Assembly: GCA_020847395.1 (NCBI GenBank)
Contig: JADLCD010000079.1
Location: 1-64,000 of the forward strand
DNA from: Chitinophagaceae bacterium
GTDB lineage: Bacteria; Bacteroidota; Bacteroidia; Chitinophagales; Chitinophagaceae
Length of the DNA: 64,000 nucleotides
Direction: 5' to 3'
In this document: piece after piece, positions 5,763 to 63,839 of the stretch
How the letters are laid out: each line of letters opens with the position of its first letter
Numbering within the stretch: position 1 is the first letter of the stretch
Program-made: the position numbers and the translations under genes
The notes under the pieces: model-generated
Told to the model about the DNA's origin: nothing
Database searches by the model: none
What the model saw: the letters and a program-made list of their open reading frames with translations, nothing else

Positions 5763-5818
5763 ACATTCCCACATTCTCACATTCCCACATTTCCTCATTC
5801 GCACATTCCCCATTCACA
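5763..5818. repeat. Degenerate 8-nt-register array (ACATTCCC type)
   Basis: Seven consecutive octamers in unbroken register: ACATTCCC, ACATTCTC, ACATTCCC, ACATTTCC, TCATTCGC, ACATTCCC, CATTCACA. They fill the gap between the convergent lysC and GH20 genes and run into the last codon of the GH20 gene. Confidence 0.8.
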
Positions 5819-6926
5819 ACTTCCCTATCTCTCCAAACAACTGCTTAAAGCACTCCGTTTGTGTGTTATTGCCACCTGAAGGGTCTTTAGTGTTATTATA
5901 GTACGAACGTAAAAAAGAACTGTTAGGCGACCATACGGTTTGCAGCATGCCGTAAAATCTTGGTTTAAGCTGGTCTGTAGCAGTATTCCTGAAATTTAGC
6001 ATGTCATTTAACTGCGCAACAGCAATAGCAGGATTTCTCCACGGGCAGGTTACTACTTTAAATCCTTTCATGGCAAAGTATACTGCTGATTTATCGGCAC
6101 GTTCATAATGCCAGTCGCAAATAATAATATCCTTTGGCACAAGATCAATAGAAGCATGTGTATTATTCCGGCTTGCTTCCCACATACCCATACCCGTTGT
6201 GTAGCCATCAAGCATCCTGTCGCCCCATATCCATAATGTTTTGTTAGATTCTGAAAGATGATCTCTTATCTTTTTTACCTCACCGGCAAACAAAACCGCT
6301 TTATCTTTTTTGCGACATCTTGGGCATTTGGAATCTCCAATATAAAACACTTCATCCATGCCTGCATGAAAATCATTTGTTTCAAAAGCGGTACAAATTT
6401 CATCAACCAATGCAAATACTATTTTGTGCACTTTAGGATGAAGCGGGCAATAGCTCTTACAATACAAGCTATCCGCATTTGGCCATTCATATTTCTCAGG
6501 CATTTTTACCCGTGGTGTTTCATCAAACTCCGGGTATACTTTAAGCAAATTATATGTTTTATTAGCCCATGATTGATGACCGAGAAGGTTAATTTGCGGT
6601 ATAATTTTAATGTTGCTATTCCTGCATGCGGCAACCATTTTTTTTACATCATCGGCAGATAGCGCAATGCTGTCTCTTAATTCAGGGTGGCTTGTAAACT
6701 GGTAATTAAAGTCAACTCGTAAAATCAAAGTATTCACTTTGCGGGGCGCAAGTTCATTATTAATAAATGTAACAAATGAATCAACTCCGGAAGGTAATGG
6801 CGCGGCTATACACAATCCGCGAATGGGTAATACACTATCAATGTTATTTTGAGCGAATAAATATTGGAGCCCTGTACCTACCAGGTAAAGAAGCAATAAT
6901 TGTACTTTAAAAAAAACTTTACTCAT
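5814..6926 (-). CDS. Glycoside hydrolase family 20-like protein, exported
   Basis: A 370-residue TIM-barrel protein with an N-terminal signal peptide (ends about AQN, residue 27). The segment H-A-G-M-D-E at 187-192 corresponds to the GH20 hexosaminidase signature H-x-G-x-D-E, where Asp191 orients the substrate N-acetyl group and Glu192 is the acid/base. NFNYQ-like strands, GHQSW and WGDRML fit the later barrel strands. It is shorter than full GH20 enzymes and lacks the usual N-terminal GH20b domain. Two Cys pairs (YCKSYC, SKCPRCRK) are unusual. Probably a periplasmic beta-N-acetylhexosaminidase or a relative of altered specificity. It stands alone, upstream of nothing in the same direction. 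Confidence 0.7.
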   Translation of the reverse strand: MSKVFFKVQLLLLYLVGTGLQYLFAQNNIDSVLPIRGLCIAAPLPSGVDSFVTFINNELAPRKVNTLILRVDFNYQFTSHPELRDSIALSADDVKKMVAACRNSNIKIIPQINLLGHQSWANKTYNLLKVYPEFDETPRVKMPEKYEWPNADSLYCKSYCPLHPKVHKIVFALVDEICTAFETNDFHAGMDEVFYIGDSKCPRCRKKDKAVLFAGEVKKIRDHLSESNKTLWIWGDRMLDGYTTGMGMWEASRNNTHASIDLVPKDIIICDWHYERADKSAVYFAMKGFKVVTCPWRNPAIAVAQLNDMLNFRNTATDQLKPRFYGMLQTVWSPNSSFLRSYYNNTKDPSGGNNTQTECFKQLFGEIGKL

Positions 6927-6982
6927 AAATATTAATATATCAAGTTATATAATAGATACCATTTAAAAAAATCCTTATGTCT

Positions 6983-8743
6983 CTATTTATAAAACCTCCA
7001 CTGGGTTTTAAAATCTTTTTTCAAAGGTTGATTGGTGATGATAGCACGAAGCATTTCGATGGGCATGCTGTTTTCGTGAAGCAGGGCGTCATTAAACTGT
7101 TTGATGTTCATTTTATTTGTATCAACCAATTCTCTTTTTAAAGCCATTTGCTGTAAGCCACCAATCATATATGCAACCTGGTATAACGGGCTATACCCTC
7201 CAACAAAAGACCTGCGAACCTCACCTTCCGCATTGGCGCGTTCATGACCTACGCGATCAACCAAAAAATCTATGCATTGCTGAGGTGTCCATTTACCAAG
7301 GTGATAGTTAAGTGAAAATATAATTCTCGCACAACGGTGCATTCTCCAGAATAACATGCCTATTCTGTCTTCCGGTGAACGTGGAAATTTCATATCCCAC
7401 AAAAGCAGTTCCCAGTATAGCGCATTACCTTCTACCCAAAATGGTGTATCAAAATTGCGATACGTTTTATACCGGCTGCTCATATAGCCCTGCAGGTGAT
7501 GCCCCGCGATTAATTCATGGTGAACCGTTGCTCTTGAAAAATACGGGTTGTTGCCGCGCATGCTCATCATCTTTTCATCGTAATCCATTGTATTGGTTGG
7601 GTAAGAAATGATGAGCGTTTCGCCACCGAGGAAGAAAGGATTTACCAGTTGTCTTTCGGGCGACATCATCATCATGCGCCAAGTTTCTTCTGAGAGCTCT
7701 GGAACAGTGATCAAATCATTTTTCTTTAAAAAATCCACTGATTGTTTGTACAGATCAAACATAGCTTCGGGTTGTTTGCCAGGCGCTACATACGAGTTTT
7801 TTACTTTCTCCTGTGCTGCTTTCCAGTCGTTGCCAAAACCCATTTCTTTTGACGCTTTTAATAATTCAGCATCACACCAAGAAAATTCTTTGTTAGCGAT
7901 ATCAACCAGTTCTTCGGGTGTATAAGGAATATATTCATATTGCAGTTGGCGTATAATTTCTTCTCTGCCTATTGGGTTACCAACGATACCGCTGCCATCA
8001 TCTTTTTGCGTGCTTTTTATTGCTCCCTTATTTTGCAATGCAACGGCATATTTACCTAATATACTATCCACTTTCTGATAGGTAGCAGGTACCCACCACG
8101 TAAACATAGGATCATAGCCATTGTAAAATGTATACATATTTTTAAGTGTAGCTTGCAAAGCTTTTGCAGTTTCAGAAGCGTAGGTTGCAGATTTCATATC
8201 TATGCTGTCGCTTTTTTTTAACGCTTCAAAGCTTTTAATGATTTCCTGTTTAATATTATTTAGTTCTTTTGCCACGGCTTCCCCGTCTACTGCCGCTCCT
8301 CTGCGTCGTGGTTTTTCAAGATTATAGATACGATCAGAAAACGGAAAATAGCCTATAATTTTTTCATGATTTTTCTGCTCTGCAAGCAGATCATATTTCT
8401 CACTCTCAAGGTTGCGTTTGAAAAGCAGGTAGTCAACCTTGCCATTCACATTCATTTTATCAAAGTTAACCTGCTGCAATTTGTTGAGATACGCTTCAAT
8501 CAATTGCAGCAAACGCTGGCGGCGTTCCGGCGTATTATACTCATTACTGCTTCTCATCCTTCCCCATCCCGGTGCATCTGAGCTTGAATAAAAACGGGAG
8601 ATACTGCCTTTATCAGCAGCATAATTTATCATCAGGTCATTCATCTCGCTGGTTTGCAGATACAAATCTTTATTCAACTCCTGTGAACGGGTTGTTGTAA
8701 TAAACAGTGTAAGTAGCATAATAAGAGTAAAGTACCTGCGCAT
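6983..8743 (-). CDS. DUF885 family protein (putative zinc peptidase), exported
   Basis: A 586-residue protein with a signal peptide (MRRYFTLIMLLTLFITTTRS). Most of the length matches DUF885, including the HHELIAGHH motif near residues 406-414, which resembles the HExxH-type zinc site of gluzincin peptidases. WRMHRCARIIFSLNYH and the GGLQQMALKREL C-terminal helix also fit. Length is typical. Family members are presumed metallopeptidases, but the substrate is unknown. Probably periplasmic. Confidence 0.8.
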   Translation of the reverse strand: MRRYFTLIMLLTLFITTTRSQELNKDLYLQTSEMNDLMINYAADKGSISRFYSSSDAPGWGRMRSSNEYNTPERRQRLLQLIEAYLNKLQQVNFDKMNVNGKVDYLLFKRNLESEKYDLLAEQKNHEKIIGYFPFSDRIYNLEKPRRRGAAVDGEAVAKELNNIKQEIIKSFEALKKSDSIDMKSATYASETAKALQATLKNMYTFYNGYDPMFTWWVPATYQKVDSILGKYAVALQNKGAIKSTQKDDGSGIVGNPIGREEIIRQLQYEYIPYTPEELVDIANKEFSWCDAELLKASKEMGFGNDWKAAQEKVKNSYVAPGKQPEAMFDLYKQSVDFLKKNDLITVPELSEETWRMMMMSPERQLVNPFFLGGETLIISYPTNTMDYDEKMMSMRGNNPYFSRATVHHELIAGHHLQGYMSSRYKTYRNFDTPFWVEGNALYWELLLWDMKFPRSPEDRIGMLFWRMHRCARIIFSLNYHLGKWTPQQCIDFLVDRVGHERANAEGEVRRSFVGGYSPLYQVAYMIGGLQQMALKRELVDTNKMNIKQFNDALLHENSMPIEMLRAIITNQPLKKDFKTQWRFYK

Positions 8744-8843
8744 ATAAAAAAATTTAGACAGTAAAAATTAATTAAAGCTAATGATGAACAGCTGAACCAG
8801 GGAGGAGGATTTTAGCCTTTTTTTATCGGATATAAACAAGGAG

Positions 8844-13345: not shown

Positions 13346-13355
13346 ACATTGCGAT

Positions 13356-17431: not shown

Positions 17432-17451
17432 AGTCAACCATTAAATATACA

Positions 17452-46025: not shown

Positions 46026-46442
46026 TTAATGTGCTAATTTGAAAATTTGAAAATTTGAAAATGCGTACAGAAGCGTCCACATGAATCCAGGAATTCTTCC
46101 TTTTGCAGAGGAAATTATTTTAGATAGTATCTTAATAATTTCATTCAAATTCTCAATCAATATATTATCAAACCTATAATTCTTACTTCTTTCACAAAGC
46201 GTCAACCAGTACAATGTTTCACTCGCTTCTTTTGCTGCTATTTTCATTTTATGGATGAAATCAGCTTTACTTTCCGCATTTTGCGCTTCAAATACGTTTG
46301 CACCGATTGAAGTGGAGGAACGCAATAATTGTCTTGCAATTACAAACTTCTTTTCACGCTCCAACTCCTCACAATATTCTATAAGCGCTAAAGAGAATGT
46401 TATAGTTTTATCAACGATAACATTGGGTTTATCATTTCTCAT
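46026..46442 (-). CDS. Four-helix-bundle protein (23S rRNA IVP type) inserted in the sdh operon
   Basis: A 138-residue protein of the S23/four-helix-bundle family (TIGR02436): [43 protein letters not shown], then [18 protein letters not shown]. The same family is encoded in intervening sequences of some 23S rRNAs and elsewhere is a stand-alone gene of unknown function. Here it lies between sdhA and sdhB on the same strand, 6 bp before sdhB. Its last codons ([12 protein letters not shown]) are written entirely by the AATTTGAA repeat that flanks it. ATG at 46442 preferred over an earlier in-frame start. Confidence 0.88.
46036..46063. repeat. 8-nt-register AATTTGAA array, right flank of the S23 gene
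   Basis: Three exact AATTTGAA units then AATG in unbroken register. The reverse complement occurs on the other side of the gene at 46475-46512, so the S23 cassette has inverted repeat flanks. Confidence 0.8.
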
Positions 46443-46474
46443 TTTTAAAAATTTAAAGATTAGCAATTTGATTT

Positions 46475-46512
46475 CATTTTCAAATTACTACATTTTCAAA
46501 TTTTCAAATTAT
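46475..46512. repeat. TTTTCAAATT array, left flank of the S23 gene
   Basis: ATTTTCAAATT recurs with a short interruption (ACTAC), then runs on as TTTTCAAATT directly up to the sdhA stop codon. Inverted relative to 46036-46063. Confidence 0.75.
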
Positions 46513-51500: not shown

Positions 51501-52451
51501 TTATTCAATTACTTTCACTCCCTGTGTGTTTATCGTAGTTACATAAGTATGATACGCAATTCCTGTAGTTGTATATACTTCTTTCATGGCGTTTTCCACG
51601 GCAAGTGCTGTGGCTTCATCTTTGCTCAGCATAAATATTGACGGGCCTGAGCCTGATATACCACCACCTAATGCACCGGCCTTCAAACATTTTGCTTTTA
51701 CTTCGGCAAAAGCCGGAATAAGAATACTTCTCACCGGCTCGATCAATACATCTTCGAGCGACCTGCTGATCAGGTCATAATCGCTCTTCATTAAGCCCGC
51801 AACCAGTCCTGCAATATTGCCCCATTGTTTGATGGCATCTTTCAATAAAATTTGCTTCTTCAATATCTGCCTGGCATCTTCTGTTCTTACTTCAATCTGC
51901 GGATGTACAACCGTTACATATAATAATGGCGAAGGCACGCTGATAATATCTAATGGAAGAATGCTGCGGATTAAAGTAACGCCGCCCATAATGCAGGGTG
52001 CAATATTATCCGCATGCTTTACTCCTGAAGCTAACTTCTCTCCAAACATAGCCATCTGCACCAGGTCGTCGTTGTTGAAAATATTACCCAGCAAATGATT
52101 CGCAGCTACCACTGCGCCTGCGGAACTTGCCGCGCTGGAACCCACACCACTACCGGGTTTTATTCTTTTTTCGATAGTAACATCAAAACCCGTTTTTCGG
52201 TCAAGCTTTTCAATCATTTCCAGCAGGGCAACGCCGGCTACATTTTTTTCCGGATCTGTTGGCAGATTATAACTATCAACATTATGTATTATTACAGTAG
52301 GTTCATCAATGAGCTTTACCGTCATTACATCGTACGGCTCATTCAATGCCAATCCTAATACATCAAACCCGCAAACCATATTAGCCACCGTGCCAGGGGC
52401 ATGTATGGTTACTGATTTACCACGTGCGTCTGAAATTTTTTCATCTAACAT
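51501..52451 (-). CDS. thrB: Homoserine kinase
   Basis: A 316-residue GHMP kinase. The N-terminal block is APGTVANMVCGFDVLGLAL, the ATP loop is P-G-S-G-V-G-S-S-A-A-S-S-A-G, and the C-terminal motif GALGGGISGSGPSIFML is present. It phosphorylates homoserine. The first bases of the gene (52450 onward) overlap an ATTTGAA repeat that fills the thrA-thrB gap. Confidence 0.95.
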   Translation of the reverse strand: MLDEKISDARGKSVTIHAPGTVANMVCGFDVLGLALNEPYDVMTVKLIDEPTVIIHNVDSYNLPTDPEKNVAGVALLEMIEKLDRKTGFDVTIEKRIKPGSGVGSSAASSAGAVVAANHLLGNIFNNDDLVQMAMFGEKLASGVKHADNIAPCIMGGVTLIRSILPLDIISVPSPLLYVTVVHPQIEVRTEDARQILKKQILLKDAIKQWGNIAGLVAGLMKSDYDLISRSLEDVLIEPVRSILIPAFAEVKAKCLKAGALGGGISGSGPSIFMLSKDEATALAVENAMKEVYTTTGIAYHTYVTTINTQGVKVIE

Positions 52452-52470
52452 TTGAAATTTGAAATTTGAG
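52450..52470. repeat. 7-nt-register ATTTGAA array
   Basis: ATTTGAA, ATTTGAA, ATTTGAG in exact register starting at the thrB start codon. Followed by a palindromic stretch of CCTGCC/GGCAGG words (52471-52492). Confidence 0.6.
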
Positions 52471-52512: not shown

Positions 52513-52547
52513 CAGCTACCAGTCTTCAGGTTTCAGCAATCAGTAAG
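52513..52547. repeat. 7-nt-register CAGnnnn array
   Basis: CAGCTAC, CAGTCTT, CAGGTTT, CAGCAAT, CAGTAAG: five units, each starting with CAG, with perfect spacing, in the thrA-thrB gap. Confidence 0.75.
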
Positions 52548-52574
52548 ATGCTTTCTGCCTGCTCACTACTGCCC

Positions 52575-52609
52575 CTTACTACTTACTACTTACCTCTTAC
52601 TACTTTCTT
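52575..52609. repeat. 7-nt-register CTTACTA array
   Basis: CTTACTA, CTTACTA, CTTACCT, CTTACTA, CTTTCTT in unbroken register, just beyond the thrA stop codon. Confidence 0.8.
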
Positions 52610-52625
52610 CCCTCTCCACCTCTCT

Positions 52626-55070
52626 CTACTGCGCCGTCGCTCTAATTATATCCGCAAACACTCCGGATGCTGTTACTTCCGCGCCTGCACCTGCACCTTT
52701 TACCACTAATGGTTGCAGCGGATAGCGCTCGGTATAAAACAATACTACATTATCTTTTCCATATAAATGATAGAGGTCATGCTCTGGTGAAATATGCTGC
52801 AATCCTACAGAAGCTTTACCATTTTCATATTTGGCTACAAACTTCAGTTTGCAGTTTCTAACGGCAGCTTCATCATACAATTTTTTAAAATGCGCTTCGT
52901 GCTTTTTCATTTCTTCATAAAATGCCGGCACATCACCATTCATGCAGCTTTCAGGTAAGAAACCATTGCAGGTAATATCCTGCATTTCCATTTGCTCACC
53001 GGATTCACGGGCTAATATCATAATCTTGCGCATCACATCCGTGCCACTCAAATCCAATCTCGGGTCTGGTTCAGTATAACCTTCGTCCTGTGCCTGTTTT
53101 ACTACCTCCGCAAAGCTGCGACTGCCATCATAATTATTAAATACAAAATTCAGTGTGCCGCTTAATACCGCTTCCATCCTGTTGATTCTATCACCACTGC
53201 GCATCAAATCATTCAGCGTACCAATTACGGGCAAAGCTGCGCCAACATTGGTTTCAAACAAATACACGCAGTTGTAGGCTCTTGCCAGGTCTTTCAAATT
53301 TTTATAATAAGCATAAGAAGAAGATGCTGCTACTTTGTTACATGCCACTACAGATACACTCTTCTGCAAAAGCTTATCATACACTTTTGCCACAGCGTCA
53401 CTCGCGGTAACATCAACAAATATGGCGTTGCGTACGTTTTTGCTGAGAATGATGTTTATGAAATTATTGATATCAGCAGATTCACCGCCGGCTAATTTTT
53501 CCTGCCACTGGTTAAGATCAATACCGGCATCATCAATAGCCATTTTGCGGCTGTTGGCAAGCCCTATAACCTTAATGTTTAAACGGAGATGCTTTGCCAG
53601 CCATTCATGCTGTTGTTTCAACTGACTCATCAGTTTGCTGCCCACGTTGCCTACGCCGGCAATAAAAAGATGTATCTGCTTGTTGGTTGTTTCAAAAAAC
53701 TCTTCATGCAATACATTGATGGCTTTGCGCACATCTTTTGTAGATACTACTGCTGAAATATTACGCTCAGATGAACCCTGTGCAATAGCGCGCACATTCA
53801 CCCCATTTCTGCCCAATGCTCCAAACATTTTACCACTTATGCCAGGGTGACTTTTCATATTTTCTCCTACCAGCGCCACGATGGACAAATCCATTTCCAC
53901 TACAAGCGGTTGCACTTTTTCCATCCGTATTTCATCTTCAAATTCCGTATCCACCACTTCTTTTGCCTTTTGTATAAATGGCGTTTCCACACCAACACAT
54001 ATAGAATGTTCAGAAGAACCCTGCGTAATCAATATCACATTTATTTTAGCAAAAGAAAGTGATTCAAACAATCTTCTTGAAAAACCCGGTACGCCAACCA
54101 TACCGCTACCTTCAAGACTAATCAAACCTATATTACTTACACTTGAGATACCGCGTATGGCATTTCCATTTGTGACAGCATGTTTTTCAATAATCGTACC
54201 CGCGTCTTCAGGTGCAAATGTGTTTTTAATTACTACCGGAATGCCCTTACCCAATACAGGTTGTATGGTTGGCGGATAAAGAACTTTAGCGCCAAAATGT
54301 GAAAGTTCCATTGCCTCCTGATACGAGATAGAGGGAATTACTTTTGCGCCGCTTACCCATCGCGGGTCTGCGGTCATCATACCAGATACATCAGTCCATA
54401 TTTCAAGCGAAGCTGCATTTAAAGCCGCAGCCATTATTGCAGCGGTATAATCAGAGCCACCTCTGCCTAATGTGGTTGTTTCATTATTTTCATCCGAAGC
54501 TATGAAGCCCGGTAATATCACCAGCGAATCCTGGTGTGTGCTGAAGAATTCGGTTATAAGATTTTTGCTGGCATCTGCATTTACCTGCGCGTTTCCAAAG
54601 TTTGTATTGGTGCGGATTAGTTTTCGCGCATCCTTCCATAATGCAGGTATACCCGCGCTGTTAAAAGCGCCTGCAATCATTTGAGAAGACATCAACTCAC
54701 CATAGCTTGCAATCCTGTCTTTTGTGCGGGTTGATAATTCGCCCAGCAAAAAAACGCCATTGCATACGTCTTCAATTTCGTTGCATATTTTTTTAACAAA
54801 ACTCAGCATGCTGCTCTGTTGCTGAACAGGAATAAGTTGTTTAACCGCTTCAAGATGGCGCTGCTCTATTCGCTGTAATTCATCTTTATATTGTTCGTTG
54901 CCGGATGAAGCTAAACTACCGGCGTTTAATAATGCATCAGTTGTTCCGCCCAAAGCAGATACAACAACAACCGTTCTGTCTTTTTCCAATGCCTTTCTTA
55001 CTATATCTATAACCTTTTTTATGTTATCAGCGCTTCCTACAGAAGTACCGCCGAATTTCAACACCTGCAT
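52626..55070 (-). CDS. thrA: Bifunctional aspartokinase / homoserine dehydrogenase
   Basis: An 814-residue fusion. The aspartokinase part (1-290) has KFGGTSVGSADN and TTLGRGGSDYTAAI. Two ACT domains follow (about 310-455, GVPGFSRRLFESLSFAKINVILITQ and MKSHPGISGKMFGALGRNGVNVRAIAQGSSERNIS). The homoserine dehydrogenase part (about 465-814) starts with A-G-V-G-N-V-G-S-K-L and contains VDVTASDAVAKVY and LSGTDVMRKIMILARE. It makes aspartyl phosphate and reduces the semialdehyde to homoserine. First gene of thrABC; the 174-bp gap to thrB is filled with short-period repeats. Confidence 0.96.
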   Translation of the reverse strand: MQVLKFGGTSVGSADNIKKVIDIVRKALEKDRTVVVVSALGGTTDALLNAGSLASSGNEQYKDELQRIEQRHLEAVKQLIPVQQQSSMLSFVKKICNEIEDVCNGVFLLGELSTRTKDRIASYGELMSSQMIAGAFNSAGIPALWKDARKLIRTNTNFGNAQVNADASKNLITEFFSTHQDSLVILPGFIASDENNETTTLGRGGSDYTAAIMAAALNAASLEIWTDVSGMMTADPRWVSGAKVIPSISYQEAMELSHFGAKVLYPPTIQPVLGKGIPVVIKNTFAPEDAGTIIEKHAVTNGNAIRGISSVSNIGLISLEGSGMVGVPGFSRRLFESLSFAKINVILITQGSSEHSICVGVETPFIQKAKEVVDTEFEDEIRMEKVQPLVVEMDLSIVALVGENMKSHPGISGKMFGALGRNGVNVRAIAQGSSERNISAVVSTKDVRKAINVLHEEFFETTNKQIHLFIAGVGNVGSKLMSQLKQQHEWLAKHLRLNIKVIGLANSRKMAIDDAGIDLNQWQEKLAGGESADINNFINIILSKNVRNAIFVDVTASDAVAKVYDKLLQKSVSVVACNKVAASSSYAYYKNLKDLARAYNCVYLFETNVGAALPVIGTLNDLMRSGDRINRMEAVLSGTLNFVFNNYDGSRSFAEVVKQAQDEGYTEPDPRLDLSGTDVMRKIMILARESGEQMEMQDITCNGFLPESCMNGDVPAFYEEMKKHEAHFKKLYDEAAVRNCKLKFVAKYENGKASVGLQHISPEHDLYHLYGKDNVVLFYTERYPLQPLVVKGAGAGAEVTASGVFADIIRATAQ

Positions 55071-55515: not shown

Positions 55516-58095
55516 ATGGCAAGCTCATCCACTGCTTCTTTAATACAATTTCAAAATCTTGTAGGACGTAAGTTTCAGTTGTATAACAGTTTGTTTACTT
55601 CTCTCCCCTTTCACCGGATAGAAAAAACAGGTATACTTTTATCGCTGCTGCTTAATTATTGTGAAGAAGGCTATACAAAAATGATGAGCCCTACACAGAT
55701 AATTGATGATTTTTTCAGCAAGCATACCGCATATACCAAAGAAGAGGAAAGGTTGGATTTATTATTCCGCTTTGTGCAATATGTAGAACGGCAGGTAGTA
55801 TTGTTTGACGCGCTGGAAGACGCGGCGTTTACAACAGTAAATGATATGAACGGCCCGGGTACGCTTAAAAATCTCCAGTCAGAAGTTGTACAGTTTAATA
55901 AAGAACAGGAGTTAAAAGATTTGTCAGATACTTTTAATGTACGCCTGGTGTTAACCGCGCATCCAACGCAGTTTTATCCGGGCGCTGTACTTGGTATTAT
56001 TTATGACCTTTCAAGAGCAATTGCAGAGAATAATATCAATAACATTAACATGTACCTGCAGCAGTTGGGCAAAACACCCTTCTTTAAGCAGCAGAAACCA
56101 ACGCCTTATGATGAAGCGGTGAGCCTGATATGGTACCTGGTAAATGTATTTTACCCCGCAGCAGGAAGAATTGTTGCTTTTATGAAATCCAATATGCCGG
56201 AAGGTATATCAGCAACTAATCCTATTTTAAGAATGGGGTTTTGGCCCGGCGGCGACAGGGATGGTAATCCTTTTGTAAAAACAGATACAACAGTAAAAGT
56301 AACCGGGGCTTTGAGAGAAAGTATTTTAAAATCTTACTACATTGATGTTAGACGTTTAAAAAGAAGATTGACTTTTAAAGGCGTTGATATTCCATTACAG
56401 GAGCTGGAGGTAAAATTGTATAACAACGTTTTTGTGCCGGGGCATAAAAGTGATCTTACCAAAGAAGAAATTTTAGAAACGCTCAATAACGTTAGGGAAA
56501 CATTAATATACCAGCATAATGGTTTATTTCTTGACCTTGTTGAAATACTTATCAATAAAGTAGAAGTGTTTGGTTTGTATTTCGCATCGCTTGATTTGCG
56601 GCAGGAAAGTACAGTGCATACAAAAATAACAGAGGAGATTGCTTCAAAAGCAGACATTCTTCCTAAAAATTATGCTGAATTAAGTGCAACTGAAAAGATT
56701 CAGGTGCTGGTGAATGTAAAAGGAATAGCAGACCCTGCTTTGCTTAGTAATGACGTATACCAGGATACACTAACGGTGATGGCTACCTTAAAACAAATAC
56801 AGGCTGCCAATGGAGAAGAAGGCTGCGACAGGTATATCATAAGCCAGTGTAACAGCGCACTTAACGCTATGGAAGTGTATGGGCTGTTTTTAATAAGCGG
56901 ATGGAAGGCTGAGGACATGAGCGTAGATATTGTGCCATTATTTGAAACAATAGATGATTTAAAAAATGCCCGCTTTATTATGGAAGAACTATATACGCTT
57001 CCGCAATACAGGGCGCATTTGCAGCGCAGAAAAAACAAGCAAACCATTATGCTTGGTTTTTCTGACGGCACAAAAGATGGCGGTTACCTGATGGCTAACT
57101 GGAGTATATACAAAGCAAAAGAAGAGCTTACCAAAATATCAAGGCAATATGGTGTAAGCGTTGTTTTTTTTGATGGTCGCGGTGGTCCTCCGGCAAGAGG
57201 TGGCGGTAAAACACATAAGTTTTATGCATCGCTCGGAAAAAATATTGCCAACGAGGAAATACAGCTCACTATACAGGGGCAAACAGTCAGTTCAAATTTC
57301 GGCACTATTGATTCTGCGCAATTCAATATTGAGCAACTGATTAATGCCGGTATTTCTAATGATCTTTTTGCCTCGCAAAAATTAGCCTTAAAAGATTCGG
57401 AAAAAGCATTAATACAAACACTTTCTGAAATAAGTCTTGATGCTTATATAGAATTGAAAAACATGCCCACATTTTTAGAATACCTGGGGCATGCAAGCCC
57501 GTTACGCTTTTATGCCGAAACAAATATTGGCAGCAGACCGGCTAAAAGAGGCGCATCGGGCAAGCTTTTATTGAAAGACTTAAGAGCTATTCCGTTTGTT
57601 GGTGCCTGGAGCCAGTTAAAACAGAATGTAACCGGTTATTATGGAGTAGGCACTGCTTTTAAACAATTAGCGGCAGAAGGCAAATGGGATGAAATAAAAC
57701 ATTTGTATGATCATTCCACCTTTTTCAAAACATTGATTGGTAACTGTGAAATGTCGATGAAGAAATGCTTTTTTCCTATGACGATGTTTTTATCGAAACA
57801 TCCGTTATACGGCGAAATATGGAATAAAATATATAACGAATACGAACTCACTAAAAGCTACATCTTTAAACTTACCGGTAAAAACGAGTTGATGGCAGAT
57901 TATCCTGTAGAACAACTATCTGTGCAGATGAGAGAGCGAATCGTATTGCCCCTGCTCACTATACAGCAATATGCTATTACCAAAGTAAGAGAACTGGAAG
58001 AAGCATTGGTTGAATCTCCTAACAAAAAAACCTATGAGAAATTAGTAATGCGTTGTTCGTTTGGTATTATTAATGCGGGAAGAAATTCTGCGTAA
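55516..58095 (+). CDS. ppc: Phosphoenolpyruvate carboxylase
   Basis: An 859-residue PEP carboxylase that makes oxaloacetate from PEP and bicarbonate. The catalytic His is in VLTAHPTQFYPG (near 150), followed by GFWPGGDRDGNPF and LDLRQES. The mobile glycine loop is F-D-G-R-G-G-P-P-A-R-G-G-G (near 556), where classical enzymes have F-H-G-R-G-G. The chain ends in a shortened R-N-S-A instead of R-N-T-G. Both changes are as expected for the Bacteroidota branch as I recall it. Functionally it feeds aspartate for thrABC, which is divergent from it. Confidence 0.93.
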   Translation: MASSSTASLIQFQNLVGRKFQLYNSLFTSLPFHRIEKTGILLSLLLNYCEEGYTKMMSPTQIIDDFFSKHTAYTKEEERLDLLFRFVQYVERQVVLFDALEDAAFTTVNDMNGPGTLKNLQSEVVQFNKEQELKDLSDTFNVRLVLTAHPTQFYPGAVLGIIYDLSRAIAENNINNINMYLQQLGKTPFFKQQKPTPYDEAVSLIWYLVNVFYPAAGRIVAFMKSNMPEGISATNPILRMGFWPGGDRDGNPFVKTDTTVKVTGALRESILKSYYIDVRRLKRRLTFKGVDIPLQELEVKLYNNVFVPGHKSDLTKEEILETLNNVRETLIYQHNGLFLDLVEILINKVEVFGLYFASLDLRQESTVHTKITEEIASKADILPKNYAELSATEKIQVLVNVKGIADPALLSNDVYQDTLTVMATLKQIQAANGEEGCDRYIISQCNSALNAMEVYGLFLISGWKAEDMSVDIVPLFETIDDLKNARFIMEELYTLPQYRAHLQRRKNKQTIMLGFSDGTKDGGYLMANWSIYKAKEELTKISRQYGVSVVFFDGRGGPPARGGGKTHKFYASLGKNIANEEIQLTIQGQTVSSNFGTIDSAQFNIEQLINAGISNDLFASQKLALKDSEKALIQTLSEISLDAYIELKNMPTFLEYLGHASPLRFYAETNIGSRPAKRGASGKLLLKDLRAIPFVGAWSQLKQNVTGYYGVGTAFKQLAAEGKWDEIKHLYDHSTFFKTLIGNCEMSMKKCFFPMTMFLSKHPLYGEIWNKIYNEYELTKSYIFKLTGKNELMADYPVEQLSVQMRERIVLPLLTIQQYAITKVRELEEALVESPNKKTYEKLVMRCSFGIINAGRNSA

Positions 58096-58164: not shown

Positions 58165-59196
58165 CTATTGCCTGGTCCAATAAAATGGTTCTGTATAAGA
58201 AGCGCCGTTATTGGTGATAATAAATTTTCCGTTTAACACATTATTATCTTCAGGCACTGTGGCTGAACCCGATATTACACCTACATTATAGAGCTGAACC
58301 TTAAAATTGATCTTATTTCCATCAACTGTTCCAACCCCTTCCCCGGTAGTAATACCAGCCACAGTTACACTTTTTAGTTCAAGTGTGTTACCTGACTGAG
58401 TAATATACATGGTGTATTGGTTAGCGGCATCATACCATGCACCACCAACATTTGCAGGAAGAGCAGGGAGATTTTCTTCCTTCACCGTTTCCGGATCTTT
58501 ATCCATTATATTTGAATTGGGCTTATCATTGTTGACTGGCTTAATCGAATCGCGGGTAACAGGATGATCGGTGATGTTTTTTTCCTGTGCTTTGGTACTG
58601 CGCGTCGCTTCAAACATTAATGCAGCTATTACCACTAAGGCTAAGCCAATTAATCCGTAAATAAGCCATTTACCAATACCACCGCTCTGTTCGGGCAGCG
58701 GTATGTCCTGCTTTTTAGGCTTAAATCCTATTTGTTTTAAGAAATTAATTAACTGGTCTGTGTCATATTTCCATCGTTTATTACTGATCTCATACGTTTG
58801 CCTGTTAAGCAAAGGATATAATGATTCCGGCAATTCTTCAGGTTGAGGAAGAGATGCATCCCGCACCAAAACAGGGATTACACGAATATCTCTTTTAAGT
58901 GCAGTTTCCAATTCAATCCTCACCCAGTCTTCAGGATGTTTGATACGGGGATTACCATTTTTATCAACGCCAACCCATTCAGGCCCTATAACTGCAAAAA
59001 GCACATCGCAGGTTTCGAGAGACTTAGCGAGCGCTACCCTAAAATCAACGCCCGGCTCAAGCTTTTCAATATCCATAAATATCTGGTCTTCATAAAAAAC
59101 CTGCTTCAGTGAGTCTACTAACCTGCCTGTATCTGCCGCAGTATCGTTTACGCGGTAACTGATAAATATTTTTTTCCGTTGAGGGTTATTTAACAA
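58165..59196 (-). CDS. Membrane-anchored TIR domain protein with exported beta domain
   Basis: A 343-residue protein starting at TTG (59196; an in-frame TAA lies seven codons upstream). The TIR domain (about 8-155) has KIFISYRVND, FMDIEKLEPGVDF, CDVLFAVIGPEW and WVRIELETAL, where Glu95 is at the position of the NADase catalytic Glu. One TM helix (about 176-195) follows, then a linker and a C-terminal strand-rich domain (about 245-343) beginning N-V-G-G-A-W-Y and ending W-T-R-Q, lipocalin-like in feel. Predicted topology: TIR inside, sensor outside. Solo gene with no obvious partner. Could be defence or signalling. Confidence 0.75.
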   Translation of the reverse strand: MLNNPQRKKIFISYRVNDTAADTGRLVDSLKQVFYEDQIFMDIEKLEPGVDFRVALAKSLETCDVLFAVIGPEWVGVDKNGNPRIKHPEDWVRIELETALKRDIRVIPVLVRDASLPQPEELPESLYPLLNRQTYEISNKRWKYDTDQLINFLKQIGFKPKKQDIPLPEQSGGIGKWLIYGLIGLALVVIAALMFEATRSTKAQEKNITDHPVTRDSIKPVNNDKPNSNIMDKDPETVKEENLPALPANVGGAWYDAANQYTMYITQSGNTLELKSVTVAGITTGEGVGTVDGNKINFKVQLYNVGVISGSATVPEDNNVLNGKFIITNNGASYTEPFYWTRQ

Positions 59197-59360: not shown

Positions 59361-59585
59361 TTATATAAAAGAAAAAGCATCAAGTTTTGTACTGCTTCCG
59401 GCTTTCACCTTCATTATACTTAACCCGATGCTTTCGTGAGAGGCTTCCATCTTCTGACGGATTTCCGCTTCTCTATGCTACTGTTTCTGTTTCCAGATTT
59501 TGTAGCGTTTGTTCATTAAAGATACTATTCTGAATATACTTTTTCCAAATTTTTGCCCTTCTTTATATGCACCCTGTACGCACAT
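59361..59585 (-). pseudogene. Small frame with one internal amber stop
   Basis: From ATG 59585 a single frame runs 75 codons to TAA (59361-59363), broken only by TAG at 59478-59480. The 35 codons before it contain G-Q-K-F-G-K-S-I-F-R-I-V-S and end K-Q-K-Q; the 38 after it contain E-I-R-Q-K-M-E-A-S-H-E-S-I-G-L and end A-F-S-F-I. Not recognised. It is most simply a decayed small gene; two short peptides are the alternative. Confidence 0.25.
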
Positions 59586-59642
59586 AGTTATGCACCGGAA
59601 ATGCAGTAAAATAAAGGGTTAAGAACAGGTTGGGCACATTTT

Positions 59643-59677
59643 AGCTGTCAGGTATCAGCTTTCAGGTGTCAGCATAG
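59643..59677. repeat. 7-nt-register AGCnnnC/AGGnnnC array
   Basis: AGCTGTC, AGGTATC, AGCTTTC, AGGTGTC, AGCATAG: alternating AGC and AGG heptads with perfect spacing. Confidence 0.8.
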
Positions 59678-59683
59678 CAAGGG

Positions 59684-59738
59684 AAAACCTATAAGGTTTG
59701 CAGCGCTGCTATTCAGCCTGGCAAACCTTATAGGTTTT
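59684..59738. repeat. Perfect 17-bp hairpin (AAAACCTATAAGGTTTG)
   Basis: AAAACCTATAAGGTTTG (59684-59700) and its exact complement (59722-59738) around a 21-nt loop, with A and T runs at the ends, so it could act as a terminator for either strand. A degenerate relative lies at 41081-41129. Confidence 0.8.
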
Positions 59739-59769
59739 TGTCATGTTCTGAAAAAAATATGAGACGTGA

Positions 59770-59811
59770 GAATCTGAAACCAGAAACCTGCAACCTGTAA
59801 CCAGTAACCGA
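59770..59811. repeat. 7-nt-register AACCTG array, right after yajQ
   Basis: GAATCTG, AAACCAG, AAACCTG, CAACCTG, TAACCAG, TAACCGA in unbroken register, ending 1 bp before the yajQ stop codon. The same word family as the array at 63714-63839. Confidence 0.8.
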
Positions 59812-59812
59812 G

Positions 59813-60304
59813 TTAGGAGCGCATATTCTCATATTGCAATGGAATTTCCAATCCCCAGGCTTTTGAAGCCTGTATTACTGATTGCAGGTCATCAATTTTT
59901 TTACCGGTTACTCTTATTAAATCATCATTAATGGAAGCCTGTACTTTAAGCCCGGAATCTTTGATATGCTTCACTATTTTTTTTGCATCTTCCTGTTTTA
60001 AGCCATTCCTAACCAACACTTCTTTCTTCCATACTTTACCACTTTGAGCGCCTTCTTTAGAAAGGTCGAATGCCTCAGGCGCTATGCCCTGTTTGTGCGC
60101 CCTGCTTATTAATACATCTATTAACTGCCGCATCTGCATATCACCATCCGTTTCAAGATTGAGTTTGTATTCTTTTTTGTTGAGATCAATCACAACATGC
60201 GAATCTTTAAAATCAAAGCGGTTGGTTATTTCTTTTTTAGTCACGTTCACCGCATTGTCCAATGCTTGCGCGTCTACTTTACTTACAATATCAAATGATG
60301 GCAT
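59813..60304 (-). CDS. yajQ: YajQ family nucleotide-binding protein
   Basis: A 163-residue YajQ protein: MPSFDIVSKVDAQALDNAVNVTKKEI at the start, NRFDFKDS, the middle SKEGAQSGKVWKKEVLVRNGL, KKIVKHIKDSGLKVQASINDDLIRVTGKKIDDLQ, and the C-terminal LQYEN. The fold is two ferredoxin-like domains. Homologues bind nucleotides including cyclic di-GMP in some bacteria; whether that holds here is unknown. ATG at 60304 matches the family start; a longer frame to 60409 has no support. Confidence 0.93.
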   Translation of the reverse strand: MPSFDIVSKVDAQALDNAVNVTKKEITNRFDFKDSHVVIDLNKKEYKLNLETDGDMQMRQLIDVLISRAHKQGIAPEAFDLSKEGAQSGKVWKKEVLVRNGLKQEDAKKIVKHIKDSGLKVQASINDDLIRVTGKKIDDLQSVIQASKAWGLEIPLQYENMRS

Positions 60305-60321
60305 AACAAAAAGTTGAATGG

Positions 60322-60329
60322 CAAAAGTA
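60322..60329 (-). promoter_or_regulatory. Candidate -7 box of yajQ
   Basis: On the minus strand TACTTTTG fits TAnnTTTG, 17 bp before the yajQ ATG. Confidence 0.35.
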
Positions 60330-60593
60330 GGAAAATAGGGGCTAATTAATAATTTGAAGTGCTGATGAAATAAAACAACAAATGTAAAACCGGTTTGGCT
60401 GCATAACAAGTGGTTATATTAAACCACTTATTCATAAATAGATTTTGGAAACTCCCTGCGGCAGCCTGCTATATTTTTATACCAGTATTCACGTTAGGCG
60501 CCTGTTTTTACGCGGGATATGTACTATGGCTGAGTAAAGGAAATGCTCAGGTAGCGATATACAGCTCACAAGTCTCCTCAAAGTAAAAGTCAG

Positions 60594-60780
60594 CGCTCCC
60601 GCCTGGGCGGGAGATACGATGCCACACCAGCATGAGGTGAAAAGCCATGAACTAAAGGCAGTTGATCATTTAAATGAAATATTTTGAGCCAGTGAGAGAT
60701 TGCTTCTCCCGCCGTAATATTCATCCAATTCAAATCTTGATGCTGGCGGGATCGCAATGACGGCGGAAGTGTGTTGGTTT
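60594..60780. repeat. CGTCATTGCGA-type dispersed repeat
   Basis: On the minus strand it reads CCGTCATTGCGATCCCGCC, then GGGAGAAGCAATCTCTCACT, then a hairpin CTCCCGCC-TG-GGCGGGAG at 60596-60613. The CGTCATTGCGA and AAGCAATCTC words are known from dispersed intergenic repeats in many bacteria. Confidence 0.55.
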
Positions 60781-60905
60781 TAATGTCAGCAAAAAAGAAA
60801 TCCCTCAAAGGATATCCGCCATGTACTTCAAGTTATTAATCAGCCGAAATAGGTTTATTGTTTTATAAAATATGATAACATAATAAGAGAAACGTGAAAA
60901 GAAAA

Positions 60906-60933
60906 ATCCCGCTGAGAACAGCGGGATCAAAAA
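60906..60933 (-). terminator. Terminator of the TonB-type receptor gene
   Basis: ATCCCGCTG (60906-60914), loop AGAA, CAGCGGGAT (60919-60927), with a TTTTTC run on the minus-strand exit side. It is separated from the receptor stop codon by the 7-nt array, giving a 3' UTR of about 200 nt. Confidence 0.75.
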
Positions 60934-61030
60934 ACCAAAACATGAGAAACTAAACTATTTTTGGGAAGCTGTAGGCGTAAGGTATAAGGTGTAGGGAACA
61001 CCGTTGCAGGTTATGCCTCACGTCTATCCG

Positions 61031-61128
61031 CTCACATTTCACCTAATACTCTATTGCCCATTGCCTATTCACTTCTACTCACTATTCACCATTGCTTATT
61101 CACTTCTCACTATTCACCATTCACTAAT
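61031..61128. repeat. Long 7-nt-register array (CACTATT/CACCATT type)
   Basis: Fourteen successive heptads in unbroken register, including TATTCAC, TTCTACT, CACTATT, CACCATT, GCTTATT, CACTTCT, CACTATT, CACCATT, CACTAAT. The word pair CACTATT-CACCATT occurs twice, 28 bp apart. The array ends inside the last two codons of the receptor gene. Confidence 0.85.
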
Positions 61129-63589
61129 TCGTCTGCCCGGCACGGTTTATTTCGTCTGATACACCTGTTGATCTTTTACGGGATGGCGCAATTGTATTTT
61201 TGCCAAAACGATAAGTAAGACTTGCAGAAACCTGCCTCGTATCCCAACGGTTACGAATAGTAACATCTACATCTCCGTAACGACTTACACCAGCAAACTT
61301 TTGCCATCCAAAAGGATCACGGAAATTAAGCCTTAGGGTTGCTTTATCTTTAAGCAAAGACTTTTGAAGCCCGATACTCATTTGATACATCGGGTCTATC
61401 ACTAAAAGCTGGTCAACAGATTTTGACCTGTAAAAACCACTAAGCTCTGCAGAAAAACCTTTTGCTATGGTAAAGCTGTTGGTAATATTTACCATATATG
61501 CGGTGTAGGCGAGATCAATAGGATCCGCATTATACATTCCCTTATAATGATTGTTATAAAAATTGGCAAATACATTGGTATTGAACCAAGCTGACCATTT
61601 AAAAGGAGCTGTGACCGACAAGCCCATATTACGGAAGGTGGATATATTTTCAGTTGTGGCAAATATTGTTTTTTCATCAGGGTTCTGCCGGATGATCTCG
61701 GAAATCACATCGGTTGTTCTGCTATAGTTCACAGTGAATATATACTTCCCTTTCAGATTATGGCTTAGCTCAACATTGTGAGTGAACTGCGGCAGCAGGT
61801 AAGGGTTCCCTTTTTTGTAGGTAAGTGAATCAAGAAAAAAGGTAAAGGGATTTAAATTTTCATAATTCGGACGGTTAACCCTGCGACTATACGACAGCGT
61901 TAGCTGATTGTTTTTATCAACGGCATAGCTTACAAATGCAGTGGGGAAAAGATTGGTATAATGCCTGGTAAAAGAGGAGTCATTGATAACCTGTCTTCCT
62001 TTAGTATTGGTATTTTCCGCTCTTAGGCCAACCTGTCCGCTCCATTTTTCATTGAACTTTTTACCGAGGTTTACATACGCTGCATTGATGTTTTCTTCAT
62101 ACAAAAAGTGATTTGACCGTGCATCAGGCATCCAGCCACCTCCCGTCTCTCTCGAATAATCTACCATATTATCATTCTTAACCAAAGTGCTTTTTATACC
62201 TGCTTCAATTTTTGCATCTCCTTTCAGCGGATGCGTATAATCCGCCTTGGCAGAATAGATATTTATGTTGGAAGGAAGATGTCCTTTTAACAATACAGGA
62301 TCACCCAGTTTATCATTATAATCACGCGGATAAGTAGTAAGCAGCATATCAGATACATTATCGTACTTCACATAATCAAGATCTACAGAAAGCTCTTTAC
62401 CAGTACTATCAAAGCTATGCTTGTAATTTACATTAGCTGTATAGTTGCGGAATTTCATATTGTTTGCTGCTGTAGAATATAACCCGGATTGCAAGCTGCC
62501 ATCAGGGTTGTATATATTGGTTATGGTTGAAGGATCAGGACGCCCGAAAAATCCGAAACCTGTAAATACCATACCTACTACATTCTTCTTATCAATAAAA
62601 TAATCCGCACCAAGCTTTACACTGTGATTATTATTACGCCCCCTAAAAGAGGTAGTCAGGTCGGCGCCTGAGTTTAAAGAACCATCAGTATTGTAAAAAT
62701 TTCTTTTGATGTTAAGCTCATTTCTGCCCTTATTAAAATTCGGATTATAGTTACCGAAAATGTTTATTTTGTTTTTACGGTAATTAAAATTCAAACTATT
62801 TTGAGAGCGGGGATTCACATATACTGCATCTCCCTTGGAAAAAAAGCCAAGACTTCCCCCAACGGTAATGCTACCATTCAAGCCACTTTTTAAACTCTTT
62901 TTGGTTTTTATGTTGATGATGCCCGCATTACCTGCTGCATCATATTTGGATGAGGGTTGCGTCATTATTTCTATCTGGTCGATAGATGAAGCAGCCGTAT
63001 TTTTTAAAAGGTTGGCAAGGTCTGCTGCGGAAAGATAAGTTGGCTTGCCATCCATCATCACAATAACGCCTCCTTTTCCTTTTAAACTGATATTACCATC
63101 ATTATCAACCGATATGCCGGGAGATTTTTCCAACACCTCCATAGCGGTGGCACCGGCATTGGTTGGCGCTGCATCCACATTTACTACCAGCTTATCAATT
63201 TTCTGCTCTATCAACGGTTTTTTGGCGGTTACTACAACCGCTTTTAAATCCTTTGGGGCAGCCTGAAGTGTTATAGTTCCTGCGTCTATATCCGTTTTGG
63301 TGTTACCCAACTGAAATGGGCCTTTATATTGTTTTTCAAATCCTACGGCACTAACCAGCAGTAAAAAAACACCTTGCTTTGCTGAAGCAATTTCAAACCG
63401 GCCATTTTTATCGGTAACCTCTACCTTTACTACGGCAGAATCTTTTGTAGCTATCAGCGAAACTGTAGCCGCTTCAACCGGCTTTACTCCTACATTTACT
63501 CCTCCCTTTATTGTATTATTTTGTGCTTGTGCATTTAGTGAAAATGCTCCGGTCAAAAGCATCAGTATCGCTCCATATATTTTTTTCAT
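61124..63589 (-). CDS. TonB-dependent receptor / outer membrane beta-barrel family protein
   Basis: An 821-residue outer-membrane protein with a signal peptide (ends NAQAQ, residue 23), a carboxypeptidase-regulatory-like domain (about 28-112), a plug (about 115-225, LEKSPGISVDNDGNISLKGKGGVIVMMDGKP, IEIMTQPSSKYDAAGNAGIINIKTKK) and a barrel with YSRRVNRPNYENLNPFTFFLD. It belongs to the SusC-unrelated barrel family common in Bacteroidota, with no SusD partner, and its ligand is unknown. The C-terminus is extended past the usual F by a basic tail. Transcribed alone; terminator at 60906. Confidence 0.88.
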   Translation of the reverse strand: MKKIYGAILMLLTGAFSLNAQAQNNTIKGGVNVGVKPVEAATVSLIATKDSAVVKVEVTDKNGRFEIASAKQGVFLLLVSAVGFEKQYKGPFQLGNTKTDIDAGTITLQAAPKDLKAVVVTAKKPLIEQKIDKLVVNVDAAPTNAGATAMEVLEKSPGISVDNDGNISLKGKGGVIVMMDGKPTYLSAADLANLLKNTAASSIDQIEIMTQPSSKYDAAGNAGIINIKTKKSLKSGLNGSITVGGSLGFFSKGDAVYVNPRSQNSLNFNYRKNKINIFGNYNPNFNKGRNELNIKRNFYNTDGSLNSGADLTTSFRGRNNNHSVKLGADYFIDKKNVVGMVFTGFGFFGRPDPSTITNIYNPDGSLQSGLYSTAANNMKFRNYTANVNYKHSFDSTGKELSVDLDYVKYDNVSDMLLTTYPRDYNDKLGDPVLLKGHLPSNINIYSAKADYTHPLKGDAKIEAGIKSTLVKNDNMVDYSRETGGGWMPDARSNHFLYEENINAAYVNLGKKFNEKWSGQVGLRAENTNTKGRQVINDSSFTRHYTNLFPTAFVSYAVDKNNQLTLSYSRRVNRPNYENLNPFTFFLDSLTYKKGNPYLLPQFTHNVELSHNLKGKYIFTVNYSRTTDVISEIIRQNPDEKTIFATTENISTFRNMGLSVTAPFKWSAWFNTNVFANFYNNHYKGMYNADPIDLAYTAYMVNITNSFTIAKGFSAELSGFYRSKSVDQLLVIDPMYQMSIGLQKSLLKDKATLRLNFRDPFGWQKFAGVSRYGDVDVTIRNRWDTRQVSASLTYRFGKNTIAPSRKRSTGVSDEINRAGQTN

Positions 63590-63713
63590 TGTAGTATGTT
63601 GTATGGTTGCTAATTATTACCTGATAAAGATAAGTACTTTGCAATGCATAGAACATAGTTTTACAATGAACGGCAAAATAGAGGGATAGTTGGTATTACA
63701 TAGTACTGAAAGT

Positions 63714-63839
63714 GGAGGTTACGGGTTGCAAGTTACAGGTTACAAGCTTCAGGTACTCAAACTAAAAGCCTGTTGCTACATTGCCAGCAACCTGGAACTT
63801 GCAACCTGGAACTTGCAACCTGGAACTTGTAACCTGAGA
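63714..63839. repeat. 126-bp 7-nt-register array with internal strand inversion
   Basis: Eighteen heptads in unbroken register. The left half uses GGTT/AGTT words (ACGGGTT, GCAAGTT, ACAGGTT), the right half their complements (CCTGGAA, CTTGCAA, CCTGGAA, CTTGCAA, CCTGGAA, CTTGTAA). The two halves could pair as one large imperfect hairpin. It sits just beyond the stop codon of the edge gene at 63861. Confidence 0.85.

Follow-up and report, generated by a model that had tools for sequence, protein, structure and literature searches.

Repeat arrays in the window

The window analysed in this work is the whole stretch of 64,000 nucleotides from a member of the Chitinophagaceae, which is contig 80 in a draft genome of 5.17 Mb (the host genome in the following). 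Its subject are degenerate tandem arrays with a unit of 7 or 8 nt, some of which form the arms of hairpins between genes. Among the matches listed for the phosphoenolpyruvate carboxylase gene (55516-58095), the closest was Terrimonas sp. NS-102 with 93% identity, and from this match we judge the host to be a Terrimonas-like member of the Chitinophagaceae. The arrays carry no strand assignment unless one is given.

Two regions contain heptamer arrays in inverted orientation. An AGGTTAC array (63714-63755) and an array with the word GCAACCTGGAACTT (63786-63839) are the left and the right arm of a hairpin with 37-nt arms, in which 63718-63754 pairs with 63790-63826 at a score of 22. The other hairpin consists of a left arm with AGGTATC/AGCTTTC words (59643-59677) and a right arm with CTGAAAC/CTGCAAC words (59770-59811), the latter directly past the stop codon of a DUF520 gene (59813-60409, minus strand). 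Here, 59649-59672 pairs with 59774-59797 at a score of 11.5, slightly below the general cut-off of 12. An earlier note on this DNA had described the consensus words as unrelated between the arrays, which does not hold: the arms at 59643-59677 and 59770-59811 belong to one family, as inverted copies, 63714-63839 comprises two reverse-complement arrays, and the AGGTTTC word of the array at 52513-52547 is common to them. Between the arms at 59643-59677 and 59770-59811 lies a copy of a dispersed 52-nt palindrome (AACCTATAAGGTTTGC...GCAAACCTTATAGGTTT, 59684-59738), and a gene for a TIR-domain protein (58165-59196) is located between the carboxylase gene and this hairpin.

Three further 7-nt arrays were found in the tandem gap between a gene with amino acid kinase and homoserine dehydrogenase domains (52626-55070) and a GHMP kinase gene (51501-52451). 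They comprise an ATTTGAA array (52450-52470), an AGnnnnC array containing AGGTTTC (52513-52547), which is partly conserved in locus L029, and a CTTACTA array on the minus strand (52575-52617; G-rich TAGTAAG on the transcript strand) close to the stop codon of 52626-55070. Directly past the stop codon of a gene for an outer-membrane beta-barrel protein resembling TonB-dependent receptors (61124-63589, minus strand), a CACTATT/CACCATT array occupies 61031-61128 on the minus strand (AATAGTG on the transcript strand). This array shows at least one register slip and, at 61051-61121, a 31-nt period with 6% indels.

The 8-nt class is represented by three arrays. The first, CACATTCC on the plus and GGGAATGTG on the minus strand, is assigned to the minus strand at 5763-5818 in the convergent gap 5748-5813 and extends a few bases into the 3' end of a glycosyl hydrolase family 20 gene (5814-6926); an inverted partner was searched for and none was found. 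The second, AATTTGAA (46036-46063), lies within the called gene 46026-46442 (minus strand; 23S rRNA intervening sequence protein family), where the repeat codes for a tail past the Pfam domain. The Terrimonas NS-102 relative of this protein seems to end earlier. The third, ATTTTCAA (46476-46510), belongs to the same word family and lies in the gap 46443-46511. Rfam searches at gathering scores matched only tRNA in the window.

For a local test, each region was shuffled 300 times with preservation of dinucleotides and the best window anywhere in the region was taken, so that the smallest possible p is 0.003. The test covered 11 stretches, with 63714-63839 split in two and 46476-46510 added. A p of 0.003 was obtained for 8 of the 11 stretches; 63714-63755 reached 0.007, and both 52513-52547 and 59643-59677 reached 0.03. 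All nine stretches listed in the earlier note were accordingly present with the claimed period and exceeded their local shuffles, two of them only at p 0.03, while the array at 46476-46510 had been overlooked. Its statement that the register is kept without slips is right as to the period but fails at 61031-61128, and the described placement after stop codons or in gaps has an exception in 46036-46063, inside a called gene.

A 7-nt step in intergenic DNA

Arrays were called as 21-nt windows with at least 16 matches at a given lag, and each array was assigned to its smallest lag. Genes were called with a custom codon-usage script, not with an annotation pipeline. Since the first sample of the host genome had been picked largely by CACTATT matches and is therefore biased, an unbiased sample of 341 kb with 35.6 kb of intergenic DNA was considered separately. 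It contained 15 arrays at lag 7, 4 at lag 14 and 3 at lag 8, compared to 0.3, 0.1 and 0.3 after shuffling. In the intergenic DNA of all host loci (678 kb), 48 arrays were found at lag 7 (0.4 shuffled), 6 at lag 8 (0.7 shuffled) and 12 at lag 14, and none at lags 3-6 and 9-10. The coding DNA of the host showed 2 lag-7 arrays in 582 kb.

A similar distribution was determined for G008, a genome of the same genus, with 32, 13 and 3 arrays at lags 7, 14 and 8 in 400 kb and no lag-7 array in coding DNA. In 80 loci, nearly all from Chitinophagaceae, lag 7 accounted for 131 arrays (0.8 shuffled), followed by lag 8 with 32, lag 9 with 12, lag 11 with 11, lag 6 with 2 and lag 5 with 1. The density varied strongly between genomes. 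In small samples, it amounted to 25.9 lag-7 arrays per 10 kb in G131, 9-10 in G043, G039 and G034, about 1 in two genomes of the host's own genus (G007 and G009) and 0 in several genomes. No lag-7 array was found in small samples of Hydrotalea, Ferruginibacter, Paraflavitalea and Puia, and none in 50 kb of E. coli. Intergenic DNA thus has a genuine 7-nt step that depends on the lineage, and 8 nt forms a minor class.

The comparison with shuffled intergenic DNA that the earlier note had proposed therefore gave a strong excess at lag 7 and far less at other lags, with variation among other bacterial families and no excess in several small samples. This makes the common generating mechanism suggested there plausible.

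Hairpins with mirrored arms

When 52 arrays of the host genome were read side by side, many gaps turned out to contain two reverse-complement arrays. Gaps that contained N were left out. For the statistics of stems, gaps shorter than 50 or longer than 1200 nt and those with no stem were dropped as well, which left 1377 of 1540 gaps. A stem was regarded as strong if it was ungapped with a score of at least 12. Strong stems were present in 104 of 198 gaps with arrays (2 after shuffling) and in 217 of 1179 other gaps (20 after shuffling), with a Fisher p of 2e-22 for the difference between the two groups of gaps.

Within 91 array hairpins, the pairing was 0.91 with the arms in register, 0.60 when they were displaced by 7 and about 0.25 when displaced by 2 to 5. 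Where neighbouring units differ at a position, the true partner matched in 1307 of 1534 cases and the partner of the neighbouring unit in 118 of 1534, a difference that partly reflects the selection of well-paired stems. The arms of the hairpins mirror each other unit for unit. The suggestion of the earlier note that a reader might count spacing rather than sequence finds no support here and was rejected, since the arrays form word families and are parts of mirrored hairpins in about half of the gaps.

The clearest hairpins were observed in Chitinophaga, with stems of 20-93 bp, 97% pairing and, in many cases, a heptamer foot with an aperiodic top. The comparison covered 116 slot pairs (orthologous gaps in two species) in which the first species has a strong stem; in 44 of them, the stem score was at least 20 in both species. 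In these 44 pairs the pairing was 0.97, while the first arms were only 0.45 identical between the species and the flanking proteins were 74-92% identical; in a gapped global alignment, we regard 45% as about the value of unrelated sequence. Since the slots often have a strong stem without an array, the hairpin looks primary in Chitinophaga and the heptamers secondary. One slot that can be compared between L079 and L080 shows an extra AAAAAGC unit together with its mirror, a change between GGAAAGC and GAAAAGC in both arms, and a top that is largely different yet paired. By comparison of species, the two arms change together and multi-base changes are included, as expected for template switching.

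Position relative to genes and polarity

An array was present in 137 of the 908 gaps between genes in tandem, in 47 of the 220 between convergent genes and in 14 of the 249 between divergent genes. The rarity in divergent gaps is significant against all other gaps (184 of 1128, p 3e-6) and weaker in G008. In 60 tandem hairpins, the first arm begins at a median of 6 nt past the stop codon.

The hairpins show a pronounced polarity, as the first arm contained more G than C in 79 array hairpins and less in 13, compared to 115 and 71 in control stems. An inverted repeat reads alike on either strand, so that the polarity belongs to the hairpin and not to the direction of transcription. Arrays outside stems in tandem gaps follow the same polarity, with a tendency to be G-rich when closer to a stop codon (49:26 near stop codons, 13:53 near start codons), and the same holds true for those in convergent gaps. 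A was more frequent than T in the first arm (0.356 and 0.282). No U-tract was found after the stems, as the T fraction in the following 8 nt was 0.32 compared to 0.42 after other stems. Simple intrinsic terminators were rejected on account of this weak T-tail and of the arrays inside a ribosomal protein gene cluster.

Orthologous slots

In four blocks of orthologous genes, an array was also present in the relative in 37 of 53 comparisons if the host gap had an array and in 14 of 66 if it had none; since species and gaps are shared, these comparisons are not independent. Arrays persisted even where no 9-mer was common to the two gaps, for example at L118 11967-12077. L118 is a ribosomal protein cluster according to Pfam. 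Its S17-L14 gap contains hairpins with ATTTGA words in the host, G003 and G002 and with AGCTATC words in G005 and G008. At this cluster G005 is the nearest relative of the host (92% compared to 80-81%), yet its words in the S17-L14 gap differ from those of the host. In the neighbouring L14-L24 gap, AGCTATC-like words were found in all six genomes read, with too much divergence in the host to call an array. At L020 814, five genomes showed four word sets: the host agrees with G005, while G002, G003 and G008 differ and G008 uses 8-nt words.

A comparable situation was observed at 63.7 kb in the window, upstream of 61124-63589. The AGGTTAC hairpin of the host is replaced in G005 (L150) by a GTTTATGG hairpin directly past a stop codon, and arrays are present in G008 (L153). 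By eye, no array was found at this slot in the other 6 of the 8 relatives.

Word families and dispersed copies

The CACTATT/CACCATT pattern gave 23 matches in the host genome (up to 3 mismatches) and 52 in G008 (up to 2 mismatches), and the reversed pattern 12 and 86, respectively. The reversed pattern cannot serve as a null, since its word, CACTTAT, is one that G008 also uses. Tandem CAGGTTT occurred in 7 genomes, including the host, out of 148 from across the phylum, with G131 as the strongest (98 matches; 58% GC in 60 kb), and the same pattern read backwards gave 3 matches in all 148 genomes. The Chitinophaga loci use the words AATTACG and AAAGCNN.

In 31 of 98 arrays with at least 7 units, the last word differed from the first at 4 or more of 7 positions with a continuous register; part of these changes is the turn from one hairpin arm into the other. 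Exact tandem pairs fell into 126 word classes, of which the top 20 accounted for 42%, while about 1,170 classes would be possible by our estimate. A limited vocabulary was rejected, since words are shared but, with 126 classes, not few. Long shared stretches are rare: among the 66 host arrays compared, 2 pairs reached a score of 30 and none exceeded it.

Two sets of repeats behave differently. An 8-nt family (ATTTGAAA, with one variable unit and the order kept) was observed at dozens of loci across the genus, mostly with 85-100% identity. Its sites include L118 7915-7954, 14570-14608 and 14649-14685, L020 4404-4464 and the array at 46476-46510 of the window. Judging from these alignments, the family looks more like a product of copying than of independent slippage. 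The 52-nt palindrome has a nearly constant sequence, with 9 copies in 678 kb of the host genome and many in G002. Besides the copy in the window, it was found at L011 18855, L014 11500, L016 6372, L020 14870, L021 9325, L025 15869, L113 6608 and L116 1406. It shares the gap with a heptamer array in 5 of the 8 copies located in called gaps, with arrays on both sides in 3. One conserved palindrome at many loci, which characterizes repetitive extragenic palindromes (REP) and bacterial interspersed mosaic elements, was thus found in the separate element at 59684-59738 but not in the heptamer arrays, which differ between loci.

Repair genes

A loss of mismatch repair was rejected as the cause, since MutS1 exceeded the cut-off in 20 of 20 genomes. 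SbcD exceeded it in 8 of these 20, in 17 of 60 Chitinophaga genomes and in 7 of 49 genomes from which loci were derived (within the Chitinophagales genomes G166-G265, with G202 and G214 in both sets). Its presence is patchy even within the one genus Chitinophaga.

In a first test, the density was 2.6 arrays per 10 kb in 13 genomes with SbcD and 8.9 in 54 without (permutation p 0.0007), and after addition of 8 more SbcD-containing genomes (5 kb each) p was 0.017, both uncorrected for kinship. Stems with a score of at least 28 were absent from 78 kb of 21 genomes with SbcD and occurred 28 times in 264 kb of 53 genomes without it (p 0.012, likewise uncorrected); 26 of the 28 came from 7 Chitinophaga loci, and 44 of the 53 genomes had none. 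In the 60 Chitinophaga genomes, judged by a DNA pattern of one vocabulary and with a pattern excess of 20 or more counted as rich, 4 of 17 genomes with SbcD and 17 of 43 without were rich (p 0.37; rank test p 0.30). The calls themselves have exceptions. G005 has SbcD and 6.5 arrays per 10 kb, several genomes counted as lacking SbcD have a partial, divergent match, and the SbcD gene called in G214, the genome to which L106 belongs, has a broken frame. G214 is pattern-rich, yet its locus L106 has no array. Two of its contigs, C10 and C11, carry AATTCAT heptamer arrays of great length with almost no deviation from the word, some of them at the ends of contigs. A lack of SbcCD as a factor in the abundance of hairpins is a lead that the Chitinophaga test did not confirm.

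Comparison with known heptamer repeats

Cyanobacterial short tandemly repeated repetitive sequences are degenerate heptamers, and in P6b of the Nostoc tRNA-Leu intron they form both sides of the stem. The traits by which heptameric simple sequence repeats (SSR) have been described (Mrazek 2007, as cited; Rehm 2015) were all found here, i.e. over-representation of 7 nt, an intergenic location with few divergent gaps and inverted G-first pairs. For bacterial heptamers in general, polymerase slippage has been proposed (PMC4679880 and PMC4692102, both citing Mrazek 2007), and a published guess for the number seven is the DNA stretch held by the polymerase (cited in the same two papers).

As far as the available text of PMC4692102 goes, the GGGAATC repeats of Xanthomonas and the GGGGA(C/T)T repeats of Nostoc resemble the present arrays in their degenerate 7-nt units, their mostly intergenic location with few between divergent genes and their position close behind the 5' neighbouring gene. 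The same source reports 70 and 75 heptamer pairs of convergent orientation able to form stem-loops in Xanthomonas, few in Nostoc, and sequence variation of heptamers between the same genes in Xanthomonas. Both systems use a single G-quadruplex word type, whereas the host genome and its relatives use many words; neither a four-tract G3 motif nor tandem GGGAATC occurred in any of 337 arrays. Mirrored units and the exchange of words at a slot are not among the features described for Xanthomonas and Nostoc in the available part of that paper.

The earlier note had stated that no matching description was known for Bacteroidota. This needs to be corrected, as PMC4679880, in its available part, reports heptamer direct repeats and larger assemblages in Gramella forsetii, A. 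sublithincola and Elizabethkingia anophelis. It also describes intergenic TAACTGA arrays in Beggiatoaceae, cyanobacteria and five Bacteroidetes, which are similar to the present arrays but consist of one word and, in the Beggiatoaceae genome, lie mostly directly before start codons. TAACTGA twice in a row was absent from all 337 arrays.

Hairpins made and mended by template switching, in which copying of the reverse complement can create and perfect stems, have been described as well (PMC8794818). According to the available part of this paper, they share the excess of G-C over C-G between the stem sides, comparable to the G-first polarity, but their U-A bias is opposite to the A over T excess in the first arm found here. 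They concern microRNA and rRNA genes, and heptamer arrays or a conserved intergenic slot are not among the features described in that part.

Going by these sources, intergenic heptamers, inverted pairs and the slippage hypothesis are already published for Xanthomonas and other bacteria, a few Bacteroidetes among them. What seems to be new is the use of many words, the mirrored units and the replacement of words. Among titles and abstract openings on heptamer or tandem repeats in Bacteroidetes, Bacteroidota, Flavobacterium and Chitinophaga, no other paper on arrays that combine these three features was found, in a search mostly outside subscription journals.

Origin of the hairpins

Direct observation covers the 7-nt excess, the intergenic location with few arrays between divergent genes, the mirroring of the arms and the fact that many slots persist despite replaced sequence. 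From these we propose, with an even chance of being right, that 7-nt slippage and reverse-complement copying make and mend hairpins at gene ends. Two replication errors would be involved. One would duplicate units in tandem, with 7 nt as the favoured step and 8 nt as an occasional one. The other would be template switching, in which one arm serves as template for a reverse-complement copy on the opposite side, so that the arms stay matched unit for unit. It could turn an array into a hairpin, pass new units to the other arm and rewrite the top in one step. The resulting intercistronic or 3' hairpin with its G-rich first arm would be tolerated or kept because it is useful or harmless; for example, it may prevent the spacer from pairing with the coding and start regions on either side. 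Where the hairpins lie and how they persist suggests that they are kept.

Several observations weigh against this explanation. Both mutational steps are deduced from comparisons that share species and gaps, and no mutation event was seen. In the window, 5763-5818, 52513-52617 and 61031-61128 have no strong inverted partner, and 94 of the 198 gaps with arrays lack a strong stem. The G-first polarity is not explained. Arrays alone in tandem gaps are barely closer to the stop than to the start codon (23 of 42 in the host, 14 of 23 in G008). In Chitinophaga, 72 of the 116 slot pairs have no strong stem in the second species, and of the 44 pairs with two stems, arrays were found in both species for 16, in a single species for 21 and in no species for 7. 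For the six-genome AGCTATC slot, the consensus fold gave two small hairpins, one per array, instead of pairing arm to arm, and both sides had changed in 2 of 19 predicted pairs. Unit order common to different loci exceeded the unit-shuffled controls (32 host pairs with a score of at least 22, compared to 8.3), which hints at copying between loci. Finally, the stems read on the transcript strand contained 49 G-U and 39 A-C pairs (p 0.34), i.e. no G-U excess, and sense and antisense strands folded equally well.

These last two results bear equally on the alternative that the hairpins are selected as RNA. A slot would then need a stable 3' or intercistronic hairpin, serving as transcript end, exonuclease block or spacer between cistrons, compensatory changes would keep the pairing and heptamers would be a handy way of stem growth. 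The rarity in divergent gaps, the start of the first arm a few nucleotides past the stop codon, the persistence of slots while the sequence changes and the G-first polarity would all fit. Wobble pairs and folding energies gave no signal of such selection, the T fraction after the stems is below that of other stems, and the hairpins also lie between ribosomal protein genes that require read-through. The replacement of a whole apex with intact pairing (L079/L080) would be hard to achieve by stepwise compensation, and we consider this alternative rather unlikely. Plain neutral slippage of simple sequences with a 7-nt preference, tolerated in promoterless gaps, with inverted partners arising by chance or rare inversion, would agree with the near absence of arrays from coding DNA, their rarity in divergent gaps and the many array gaps without a strong stem. 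Moreover, heptamers are said to be the commonest long SSR class in most bacterial genomes (PMC4679880; PMC4692102). This explanation is weakened by the unit-for-unit mirrored arms, leaves the polarity and the word families common to loci and genomes unexplained, and is improbable. Least probable in our view is a spread of hairpins between loci as mobile or copied elements, by recombination or a REP-type transposase. Word families recurring at many loci, the excess of shared unit order, the true dispersed palindrome between heptamer arrays in the window and the presence or absence at the 63.7 kb slot point in this direction, and the scarcity of long shared stretches speaks against it.

The combination of slippage and reverse-complement copying could be extended to self-renewing hairpin slots. 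Place and mirrored, often 7-nt-stepped form would be inherited between species, while the letters would be rewritten repeatedly by these two processes, and the lack of the hairpin nuclease SbcCD in most tested genomes may let the longest hairpins survive. This extension is tentative, and we hold it to be somewhat less likely than its basis.

Biological meaning

Why heptamers stand out in the long repeats of bacteria was asked in 2007 and is left open in the available parts of the papers citing it (PMC4679880, PMC4692102), and the origin and upkeep of long paired stems is an old question of RNA evolution (PMC8794818). Both questions meet here, in genera that have named strains in culture and carry many slots in each genome. 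As a caution, the stems and the apparent covariation of gaps like these may have arisen by mutation and need not prove an RNA function. The slots allow single events to be looked for between strains, such as one more 7-nt unit on each arm or an apex with a new sequence. Since related species often retain the position of a slot with its letters exchanged, the slots offer a natural test of how such hairpins originate.

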